DNA of 64,000 bases from Synechococcus sp. RedBA-s (GTDB lineage: Bacteria; Cyanobacteriota; Cyanobacteriia; PCC-6307; Cyanobiaceae). Position 1 is the stretch's first letter, and every line of letters starts with the position of its first letter. The notes beneath the pieces were generated by a model. That model saw only the letters and a list, made by a program, of their open reading frames with translations. It was not told the DNA's origin and searched no databases. Shown here in pieces: positions 49,699-52,080 of the stretch. The translations under genes were made by a program, and so were the position numbers. The stretch lies in contig NZ_JAGQBF010000001.1 in the NCBI RefSeq assembly GCF_024345495.1, forward strand, positions 62,001 through 126,000. The letters are read 5' to 3'.

Positions 49699-50469
49699 TC
49701 AGATCCAGGGATCCTCCGGTTCGGGCGGATCACCATCAAGGGGCTGAGGGCGCCTTGGCTCCGGCCGGCGTCGGGGCGCGGCCGAATCCTGCCGCAGGGG
49801 CTCGCCCCAGGCCTCCGGGTCATCCCAGTCCTCGCGTGCGTCGAGGGGTTCTGGCTCCTGCCAGGGGGGCTCCTCCAGCCAGCCCTCCAGCCGCTCCTCG
49901 AAGCGTCCGCCCACCTCATCGAACTGCTCCTTCCAGCGGCGGGAGCGCCGCAGCAACTCCTGGCGCACGCTGGCGCGGGCCAGAGGAAGATCATCGAGGC
50001 CCTGCAGGGCCGTCATCACCTGACCGGGCTGCTGATCGAAGATTCGCTCGGGGGAGAGCAGCCATCGGCTGCTGCCGGGCAGGCGCGGATCGCTACGGGC
50101 CACCAGATAACTGACGATGCGGCCGCTGCGCATGTCCACATTGGCGTCAGCGATCACCCCCAGCAGTTGGCTGTCGCCCCCGAGCAGAGCTGCGTCGAAG
50201 AGGGTGGGCAAGCGCTCCAGGGTGGCGGGGTCGGTGTCAGCGGGTTCCCCCTGCACCAGAGCCTCCTGGTCACTGAGGCCGCGCAGTTGGTTGAGCCGCC
50301 ACACCAGGCGGCGACTGCCGAAGGCGGAAGGCTTACTCACCCAGCCCAGCAGGCGGTGCACCGGCGGATGCATCCAGCCCTGCAGACCGGCGCCATGGTC
50401 GATCCCCTGGTGGCAGCGCACCCGGCGGCGCAACAGGTCGCTGAGCAGCAGTTGCTCGGGCAGGCTCAC
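49699..50469 (-). CDS. PRC-barrel domain protein
   Basis: The 256-residue protein shows two PRC-barrel-like halves: LLGWVSKPSAFGSRRLVWRL near the N-terminus and LLGVIADANVDMRSGRIVSY in the middle, the second with the classic strand pattern. A helical segment follows (SVRQELLRRSRRWKEQFDEV), then a low-complexity Pro/Glu/Arg tail. Function unknown; PRC barrels often bind RNA or act in regulation. It starts 4 bp after dnaN ends, so it is co-transcribed with the clamp gene, as in other picocyanobacteria. Confidence 0.82.
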   Translation of the reverse strand: MSLPEQLLLSDLLRRRVRCHQGIDHGAGLQGWMHPPVHRLLGWVSKPSAFGSRRLVWRLNQLRGLSDQEALVQGEPADTDPATLERLPTLFDAALLGGDSQLLGVIADANVDMRSGRIVSYLVARSDPRLPGSSRWLLSPERIFDQQPGQVMTALQGLDDLPLARASVRQELLRRSRRWKEQFDEVGGRFEERLEGWLEEPPWQEPEPLDAREDWDDPEAWGEPLRQDSAAPRRRPEPRRPQPLDGDPPEPEDPWI

Positions 50470-50473
50470 GGCC

Positions 50474-51616
50474 TCAGCTGCGGATCTGAACGGGCATCAC
50501 CAGGTAGGTGAAGCTGGGATCCTGCGCGGAGGTGAGCACCGCCGGGGTGGTGGGGGCATTGCAGCGCAGCTCCACCCGCTCAGGTGTCATCGCCTTGAGC
50601 CCATCAAGCACATAACGCACGTTGAAGGCGATTTCGATCGGTTCACCGCTGATCACCGCCGGCAGGTCTTCGGAGCCGCTGCCCACGTCCTGGGCGTCGG
50701 CACTGATGTGCAGCTGACCACTGGCGGGATCACTGCTGAGCTTGACGACGTTGTTGTGTTGGTCGGCCAGCACCGCCACCCGCTCAAGCGCCTGGATGAA
50801 GCCCCGGCGATCCAGCTCCAGGGTGCGACTGAAGCGCTCGGGAATCAGCTGGCGGTAGTTGGGGTAGGTGCCATCGAGGCTGCGGCTGGTGAGCACCTGG
50901 TCAGCCCAGAGAAACACCACCTGTCCCCGGTCGCAGTACAGGCTGACCGGATCATCACTGCTGCAGGCGGAGAGCAGCCGCTCCAGCTCCCGCAGGGAGC
51001 GGGCCGGCACGGTCACAGCGAAGGGCTCGCTGCCGTCTTCAGCGCCGGAGAAGGCCTTCTCCAGACGCAGCACCGAGAGGCGGTGCCCATCGGTGGCGGC
51101 GCACTCCAGATGCTGATCCGCCAGGCCCAGGTGCACCCCGGTGAGCAACTGCTTGGCCTCATCGCCGCTACTGGCAAACAGCGTGGCCCGCAGCCCCTTC
51201 ACCAGAGCCTCCGGTTGCAAGCGCAGGGGCGTTCCGGTCTGAACGAGGGGCAGATCGGGAAAGTCCTCAGCGGAGAGCCCGCGCATCTGATAACTGCCAG
51301 AGCGGCTGTTGAGTTCCACCTGTTCCTGGCCTTCCTCACAGCTGAGGCTGATCGGGCTGTCGCTGGAGAGCCGGGAAACGATTTCACCGAAGAGTCGAGA
51401 CGGCAGTGTGATCGTGCCACTGCTCTCGACGGAAGCGCTGAGGCTGGTCTGAATGCCGAGGCTGAGGTCGAAACCGGTGAGGCTGAGCCGGCCGGTGCCG
51501 GCATCGGCGGTGAGCAGCACGTTGGCCAGCACCGGATGGGTGGGGCGTGAGGCCACGGCACGGCTGACCAGCTGAAGGCTGGCGCTCAGTTCCGCCTGAG
51601 AGCAGACCAGCTTCAT
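50474..51616 (-). CDS. dnaN: DNA polymerase III sliding clamp (beta subunit)
   Basis: DnaN forms the ring that tethers polymerase III to DNA. The 380-residue protein starts MKLVCSQAELSASLQLVSRA and has the three clamp domains; recognisable pieces include SRPTHPVLANVLL, SGDEAKQLLTGVHLG and the C-terminal YLVMPVQIR. ATG 51616 is used; the upstream open frame lacks similarity. The gene runs leftward, away from the candidate origin next to it. Confidence 0.97.
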   Translation of the reverse strand: MKLVCSQAELSASLQLVSRAVASRPTHPVLANVLLTADAGTGRLSLTGFDLSLGIQTSLSASVESSGTITLPSRLFGEIVSRLSSDSPISLSCEEGQEQVELNSRSGSYQMRGLSAEDFPDLPLVQTGTPLRLQPEALVKGLRATLFASSGDEAKQLLTGVHLGLADQHLECAATDGHRLSVLRLEKAFSGAEDGSEPFAVTVPARSLRELERLLSACSSDDPVSLYCDRGQVVFLWADQVLTSRSLDGTYPNYRQLIPERFSRTLELDRRGFIQALERVAVLADQHNNVVKLSSDPASGQLHISADAQDVGSGSEDLPAVISGEPIEIAFNVRYVLDGLKAMTPERVELRCNAPTTPAVLTSAQDPSFTYLVMPVQIRS

Positions 51617-51738
51617 CGCGACATGACTCCAGAGAGGACAACCCCGCCAAGGGCTCCACCACGCTTCCACACCACTGCCCGAAGCGCAACGAGAGCCCGT
51701 CTGCTCGAACCGCTTTCCCCCGGCCTTTTCCCCAATCC

Positions 51739-51780
51739 TGTTACTGGTTTTGGATTAATTGAAAAGAAAACAAATCCAAT
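51739..51780. other. AT-rich segment, possible unwinding element
   Basis: Within an otherwise GC-rich region, about 42 bases are rich in A and T (for example TGGATTAATTG followed by A-rich tracts). It lies just after the first DnaA-box-like repeat. In known origins such a patch is where the strands first open; that role here is inference. Confidence 0.35.
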
Positions 51781-51796
51781 CCGTAGTCGTAGGGGC

Positions 51797-51814
51797 TGGG
51801 GAAAAGGTGGAAAA
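51797..51814 (-). promoter_or_regulatory. Tandem DnaA-box-like pair
   Basis: Two nine-base repeats abut on the minus strand, TTTTCCACC (51806-51814) then TTTTCCCCA (51797-51805). Direct contact of two boxes is what a cooperative DnaA array would show. Each differs from TTTTCCACA by one base. Confidence 0.45.
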
Positions 51815-52015
51815 GCCCACCGCCTCAGTGTTGGACTGAAGTTCTTGCGATCAGGACTGCGGAATTCTCCAGAGAAAAATCACCGAAATCAGGGTTTTCC
51901 ACTCTTTCCCGGATCTGGGGAAAACGTCAGCGTTTCAGGGGCGCACGCTTGGCCCCGGTTCTCCCCGCCTTGAGGCGACTTTTCCTGTGGACGCTTTGGC
52001 CAGTGACACCGCAAC

Positions 52016-52049
52016 AAAAAGCCCCATGCCGGAACTTCCGGCATGGGGC
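52016..52049 (-). terminator. Rho-independent terminator of thrC
   Basis: A perfect inverted repeat, GCCCCATGCCGGAA and its complement around a single base, is followed on the minus strand by five T. It lies about 32 bp after the thrC stop codon and should stop transcription before it enters the candidate origin. Confidence 0.88.
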
Positions 52050-52080
52050 TGGGTAGATGGTTGGGGTCAGCTGTCCTGGC

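Follow-up and report, generated by a model that had tools for sequence, protein, structure and literature searches.

The basal unwinding system (BUS) has been described as two DnaA boxes followed by a GC-rich spacer and DnaA-trios, the trios being defined on the opposite strand, where 3'-GAT-5' with its middle adenine is the commonest, and a BUS functioned with S. elongatus DnaA in vitro (PMC8287927, in the excerpts available). The BUS search rule given there accepts up to two mismatches in the trio-adjacent box, up to four in its tandem partner and a spacer of 0-16 bp, and asks for at least three consecutive NAN trios. B. subtilis DnaA, as seen in its complex, captures the leading G and A of a trio while the third base points away; the G is contacted by Arg202 and Glu228, and the amino group of A by Asn187 (PMC10721633, likewise as excerpted). 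According to this 2023 work, what DnaA reads is the amino group common to A and C. A C in place of A17 in trio 1 keeps the strand-separation rate, A-to-C changes in trios 1-3 support growth and initiation better than A-to-G or A-to-T, and the authors wrote that homologues of DnaA could accept varied sequences.

In cyanobacteria, the origin at dnaN has been reported before (PMC4674748), and the box TTTTCCACA is known to drift to G/C in GC-rich species such as Cyanobium gracile (DoriC 10.0, PMC6323995). An oriC beside dnaN with drifting boxes is thus already known, and the locus described here lies in the ordinary, expected place. It resembles the S. elongatus PCC 7942 oriC, which also lies at dnaN, carries TTTTCCACA-type boxes and runs from tandem boxes through GCCC into trios. 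S. elongatus, however, has 8 boxes (TTTTCCACA or TTATCCACA) and lacks trios with a middle G, whereas our locus has five one-mismatch boxes and C-substituted trios. With the B. subtilis BUS (3'-GAT-5') it shares the tandem boxes, the short GC-rich spacer, the trinucleotide repeats and identical equivalents of the base-contact residues, but in its trios 2 and 4 the middle adenine has given way to cytosine, so that the locus escapes the search rule. The middle cytosine and the amino-group logic are shared with the B. subtilis A-to-C trio mutants (PMC10721633); those mutants were engineered, while the change here is natural and extends across many species. The predicted oriC of Cyanobium gracile PCC 6307 (DoriC 10.0, PMC6323995) shows the same G/C drift of the boxes, and the available part of its description concerns boxes and makes no mention of trios. 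No report of cytosine in natural cyanobacterial DnaA-trios was found in a search of openly accessible article text.

The intergenic region beside dnaN

The window analysed here is a stretch of 64,000 nucleotides (G000:C1:62001-126000) from a genome of 2.72 Mb in 61 contigs, and its dnaN shares 99% identity with that of Cyanobium sp. CZS48M, 98% with that of Synechococcus sp. CS-1329 and 97% with that of WH 5701. The original prediction placed a candidate origin in a gene-free region beside dnaN, and open reading frames indeed flank this region, with dnaN and thrC models matching on its two sides (Table 1). Its statement that dnaN, the PRC-barrel gene, purL and purF point away from the region does not extend to every neighbour, since thrC runs towards it, and the gene at 49699-50469, named there as PRC-barrel, has no Pfam or NCBIfam match at 1e-3. 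On the 3' side of thrC, we noticed by eye a terminator-like hairpin with a T run (52015-52050, minus strand, GCCCCATGCCGGAAGTTCCGGCATGGGGCTTTTT) that could perhaps shield the origin from thrC transcription. For comparison, 80 related loci were aligned with the window, giving 81 rows, of which L017 and L020 share one assembly.

Table 1. Features of the dnaN-thrC region, in window coordinates
Feature	Position	Strand	Remarks
dnaN	50474..51616	-	ORF and match to model TIGR00663
Very probable oriC, intergenic between thrC and dnaN	51617..52080	.	ORFs on both sides; thrC and dnaN models; columns of the 81-locus alignment
Conserved dnaN-proximal element GTTGCGC-N12-TGTGGAAGCGTGG	51659..51690	-	~42 bases before dnaN
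DnaA box TTTTCCCCA, position poorly conserved	51726..51734	+	
Putative AT-rich DNA-unwinding patch, directly past the trios	51734..51780	.	lowest-GC 45-mer
DnaA-trios CTA CGA CTA CGG	51781..51792	-	contact strand is plus, 3'-GAT GCT GAT GCC-5'
GC-rich spacer GCCC, box to trios	51793..51796	-	4 bases
DnaA box TTTTCCCCA, trio-proximal member of tandem pair	51797..51805	-	
DnaA box TTTTCCACC, second member of tandem pair	51806..51814	-	
DnaA box TTTTCCACT, one half of inverted pair	51895..51903	+	
DnaA box TTTTCCCCA, other half of inverted pair	51916..51924	-	
thrC, transcribed towards the origin	52081..~53136	-	ORF and TIGR00260; alternative ORF start 53184, start codon unsettled

The five predicted TTTTCCMCH repeats are all present and span 199 bp (51726-51924) adjoining dnaN; each has one mismatch to TTTTCCACA, and two stand back to back in the same orientation. 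The window contains 6 such sites against 1.04 expected, a number that 0 of 100 shuffles reached, and the genome contains 47, with 32 for the reversed pattern. At the genome rate, at least five boxes in 199 bp corresponds to a Poisson P of ~4e-15, or ~5e-11 over all windows. A window search for TTTTCCACA with one mismatch gave 8 sites against 3.84 expected; because 4 of 100 shuffles reach this total, it is the clustering, with five of the eight in 199 bp, that is unusual, and the cluster of TTTTCCACA-like boxes exceeds chance. The mix of TTTTCCCCA and TTTTCCACN forms, which the original prediction had considered unusual, turned out to be ordinary for the group: base 7 of TTTTCCNCN is mostly C in the 81 loci (C 130, A 66, G 33, T 12), and it is A 180, C 27, G 3 and T 2 in 40 outgroup regions. 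Elsewhere in the genome, the sole other TTTTCCMCH pair within 100 bp lies between two ORFs at G000:C6:61114-61144 (L152 1115-1145), where TTTTCCACA and TTTTCCCCA are 22 bp apart; this might be a DnaA titration or regulatory site.

Upstream of dnaN, the columns conserved among the 81 loci are the tandem boxes (51797-51814), GCCC-CTAC, the inverted boxes (51895-51924) and the dnaN-proximal element. TTTTCCCCA stands at the position of box 51726 in 0 of the 80 related loci and is nearly private to the window; TTTTCCMCG lies at a similar distance in four loci (L013, L023, L062, L063). The inverted pair is recognisable in 37 of 81 loci with a strict pattern and in 47 with a relaxed one, and its exact matches vary.

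Read on the minus strand from 51814 to 51781, the sequence is TTTTCCACC-TTTTCCCCA-GCCC-CTA-CGA-CTA-CGG, after which the AT-rich patch begins. These DnaA-trios adjoining the paired boxes were absent from the original prediction, which had mentioned the patch; the latter is well borne out, as the 45-mer at 51734 is 29% GC, tied lowest among 63,956 in the window. The tandem boxes, each with one mismatch to TTTTCCACA, and the four-base spacer both fall within the BUS limits, and when the spacer was left free in the search it was still four bases in 76 of 81 loci. Three consecutive NAN trios do not occur in the frame CTA CGA CTA CGG ATT GGA or, by eye, at the other trio start offsets from 0 to 16; it is the middle cytosine in trios 2 and 4 that makes the published three-NAN rule fail. 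Across relatives, a run of at least three NAN within six trios of that frame was present in 20 of 93 above-cut regions (101 searched).

The dnaN-proximal element GTTGCGC-N12-TGTGGAAGCGTGG was matched in 70 of 81 loci, with a spacer of 12 bases in 70 of 70. It parses as a -35 element TTGCGC, 17 bp and an extended -10 element (TGTGG then AAGCGT), and is probably the dnaN promoter, located inside the origin; its TGTGGAA also looks like half a DnaA box. One could read the entire box cluster as a DnaA-regulated promoter region of dnaN and not as an origin, given this promoter-like element and the second two-box site at G000:C6. Such a reading is at odds with the trios, the lowest-GC patch, the change of skew that two relatives assembled as one contig show at dnaN (see below) and the experimentally identified S. 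elongatus oriC near dnaN (PMC7198777, as excerpted), and we hold it to be highly improbable.

Strand composition around dnaN

Skews were computed from 20-kb samples of two relatives assembled as one contig, G112 (same genus, dnaN 97% identical; n=36, 16 right and 20 left of dnaN) and G022 (n=20). The p values are uncorrected for the three skews tried and, since the samples lie 60-160 kb apart, the position of a switch is known only to ~0.1 Mb. In G112, the AT skew is -0.024 right of dnaN and +0.023 left of it (p=0.00015), and the keto skew gave p=0.005 at dnaN. The three best positions of the AT scan fall at 1.36-1.40 Mb, with dnaN at 1.412 Mb and dnaA at base 1. The GC skew of G112 gave no signal at dnaN (p=0.63, 36 samples), and the best positions of the GC scan lie at 1.24-1.28 Mb, 0.13-0.17 Mb off dnaN. 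In G022, the AT (p=5e-5), keto (0 of 20,000 permutations) and GC (p=0.0001) skews all switch at dnaN, and the three best AT positions are at 2.32-2.36 Mb, where dnaN is at 2.324 Mb and dnaA at 1.297 Mb. In both genomes the switch is at dnaN and not at dnaA, and dnaA was rejected as the place of the origin.

The sign change of GC skew that the original prediction had offered as a check was seen at dnaN in G022 and not in G112 (p=0.63). GC skew is a poor test of the origin here, and we discarded it as a locator, as it gave nothing in G112 and no usable turn in our own contig C1. In this contig (190,691 bases), the cumulative A-T is +1196 up to the origin and ~+190 after it, with no turn, and the cumulative G-C bottoms out at C1:96,168, ~17.6 kb away; the skew of C1 is compatible with the proposed origin but not decisive. 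The AT and GC skews of the first 10 kb of C1 are exactly zero, which we checked as a palindrome or an error and attributed to chance.

The proposal of an oriC is supported by the box cluster, the AT-rich patch, the position at dnaN, the conserved box-box-trio module and the composition switch at dnaN in the two one-contig relatives, together with a dnaA gene elsewhere in the genome (G000:C28). With these sequence features, we regard it as very probable that a Cyanobium-like cyanobacterium has its chromosomal origin of replication in this region.

Middle bases of the trios in relatives

The trios of relatives were located with a weight matrix. Its first version had seeds that favoured T/G at the middle, and 93 of 101 regions were above the cut; later versions masked the middles of trios 2-4, then all four middles, and then left the spacer free. 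To some extent, the search model itself imposes a constant trio 1, constant first bases and a constant spacer. At a score cut of 12, with the middles of trios 2-4 masked, 13 of 141 regions were excluded from the tallies, namely L116, L117, L120, L121 and L125 among 20 distant same-family regions and L234, L238, L244, L247, L249, L250, L260 and L263 among 40 outgroup regions. By eye, L116, L117, L120, L125 and L263 contain CTA repeats with T middles, and no trio module was seen in the remaining excluded regions.

With the middles of trios 2-4 masked, a site was scored in 81 of 81 loci. On the top strand, the middle base is T in all 81 for the unmasked trio 1; G 51, T 27, A 2 and C 1 for trio 2; T 40, G 38 and A 3 for trio 3; and G 65, T 13, A 2 and C 1 for trio 4. 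Among the non-adenine middles of trios 2 and 3, 89 of 95 are cytosine on the contact strand (top-strand T to G). Masking all four middles left 79 of 81 loci scored with much the same composition (trio 1, T 79/79; trio 2, G 51, T 27, C 1; trio 3, T 38, G 38, A 3). Of the 324 first bases of trios, 316 are C, in part owing to the way the search was set up, and the third base of trio 2 is A in 59 loci and G in 22.

The outgroups, which belong to other cyanobacterial families, were scored in 32 of 40 regions, and trios 1-3 have T in 96 of 96 cells, which is also true of the six regions with an upstream GC of at least 0.50; the trio 4 middles are T 28, C 3 and G 1. The f11 genomes G209 and G228, which we take to be S. 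elongatus-like, read TTTTCCACATTTTCCACAGCCC and then CTA (C/T)TA CTA CTG. In the distant same-family regions (15 of 20 scored), the 30 cells of trios 2 and 3 include 4 G, 1 A and 1 C. A further 18 genomes, of genera g5, g6, g10 and g28 and presumably marine Synechococcus, have G in 22 of 36 cells of trios 2 and 3, T in 14 and A or C in 0 of 36, and trio 1 is CGA in two of the 18. Twenty regions had been fetched, G069 (G, T at trios 2, 3) and G022 (T, A) falling outside the 18; with both added, 23 of 24 non-T cells are G.

The number of T middles in the first three trios is negatively correlated with local GC (rho -0.59, 93 regions, ancestry ignored). Parsimony on a single 81-tip dnaN phylogeny from FastTree, rooted on T wherever this was possible, gave 18 T/G changes, 0 T/C, 1 A>T and 3 G>A or G>C for the middles of trios 2 and 3, whereas 211 control columns, which are poorly aligned, gave 514 T/G, 790 T/C and 545 T/A (Fisher p=1.7e-9). 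Since T>C outnumbers T>G in the controls (340 to 218), composition pressure alone would not be expected to yield the trio pattern.

The main rival to a selected pattern is relaxed selection, with a real oriC whose trios are decaying as the dependence on DnaA loosens, as in Synechocystis 6803 and Nostoc 7120, and whose changes are functionally meaningless. Several cyanobacteria do replicate without DnaA-oriC (PMC7198777, in the part available), the same-family genome G191 lacks both a match to DnaA and a BUS before dnaN, and the inverted box pair is unrecognisable in 34 of 81 loci. Decay, however, leaves the bias to one of three possible substitutions unexplained, with departures at trios 2 and 3 mostly T to G and T/C changes absent from the tree. 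It also sits poorly with a spacer that mostly keeps its four bases when left free, with a trio 1 whose middle, when masked, is T in 79 of 79 loci, and with a DnaA that is matched in 198 of 200 genomes of the order and whose pocket residues do not vary, as described below. We judge decay of the trios quite unlikely.

DnaA and the proposed chemistry of trio recognition

At the equivalents of B. subtilis E183, N187, I190, I193, R202, K222, E223, E228 and R264, placed by alignment, all 47 of the 47 DnaA proteins compared (own family and outgroups) carry the same residues. At position 196, close to the base that is not captured, 45 have Asp, one has Lys and one has Gly. We take 8btg to be the B. 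subtilis DnaA complex; its residues agree with the published ones. The natural pattern, with the first base fixed, the middle A or C and the third mostly T or C, matches what the structure predicts. The captured first base stays G, the uncaptured third base drifts, and the trio adenine is replaced almost only by the base with the same kind of amino group. Sequence evolution would thus independently bear out a structural claim on trio reading made in one organism.

By analogy with the B. subtilis BUS, we infer that two DnaA molecules would bind the tandem pair 51797-51814 on the minus strand and that their AAA+ domains would extend along the plus strand across 51792-51781, each trio placing its leading dinucleotide (G, then A or C) in the pocket between adjacent DnaA protomers. 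The AT-rich patch 51734-51780 would then open and the helicase would load, and the inverted boxes 51895-51924 may have a recruiting role. For trios 2 and 4 (2, 3 or 4 in other species), a change of the middle base from A to C is proposed in this high-GC lineage. Since C retains the amino group met by the Asn187-equivalent of DnaA, the origin would gain GC and keep the recognition chemistry. The sequence elements with their conservation, the substitution pattern, the skew switch of the relatives and the unvaried pocket are observed, whereas a start of replication at this site in the strain, its opening by DnaA via the trios and selection for the amino group as the cause of the pattern are inferred. 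Taken jointly, an oriC at dnaN, opening by DnaA via the trios and A-to-C middles that retain the amino contact make up an account that we regard as highly likely.

A preference for A/C on one strand is a preference for G/T on the other, and sequence alone cannot separate an amino group on the former from a keto group on the latter. The trio pattern is therefore also compatible with a CKA repeat kept not for DnaA but for a different protein reading the top strand, such as a helicase loader or some as yet unknown factor of oriC. The position, spacing and orientation of the repeat and the order of constraint (first, middle, third base) nevertheless fit the captured-dinucleotide structure of DnaA (PMC10721633, as excerpted), and we think a top-strand reader unlikely.

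Under the preferred account, in which DnaA reads the trios, we also lean, with less assurance, to a broader claim: that DnaA reads the amino group and not adenine as such, and that GC-rich picocyanobacteria have repeatedly gained and reverted a natural 3'-G(A/C)Y-5' code that the NAN rule misses, perhaps in some of the 15% of bacterial origins reported to lack a BUS. The trio pattern suggests loosening the search rule from NAN to NMN, and the natural variants make the reading of single-stranded origin DNA by DnaA testable.

Several further observations concern DnaA itself. The two genomes of the order without a DnaA match are G191 and G169, the latter lacking PF00308. G191 (L121; same family, 1.9 Mb, 95% complete) also has no box-trio module before dnaN, and is a candidate for DnaA-independent replication among picocyanobacteria, or for an assembly gap. 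In the helix-turn-helix motif GGKDH[S/T]T (own protein: L153), Ser is found in 8 of 47 proteins and Thr in 39. The Ser type occurs in genera g1, g8, g11, g15, g16 and g25, and the GC-rich G185 has Thr. Box base 7, which shifts from A to C in the relatives of the window, may co-vary with DH[T/S]T, but Thr genomes also carry C-type boxes, and the co-variation is confounded with ancestry and base composition; we keep it as a lead only. A literature search for contacts made by helix-turn-helix residues of DnaA yielded no usable information. Apart from dnaA, G112 carries fifteen stretches with 25-30% identity to part of DnaA, 12 of which share one score, and these partial look-alikes are probably the ATPase of a multi-copy mobile element.
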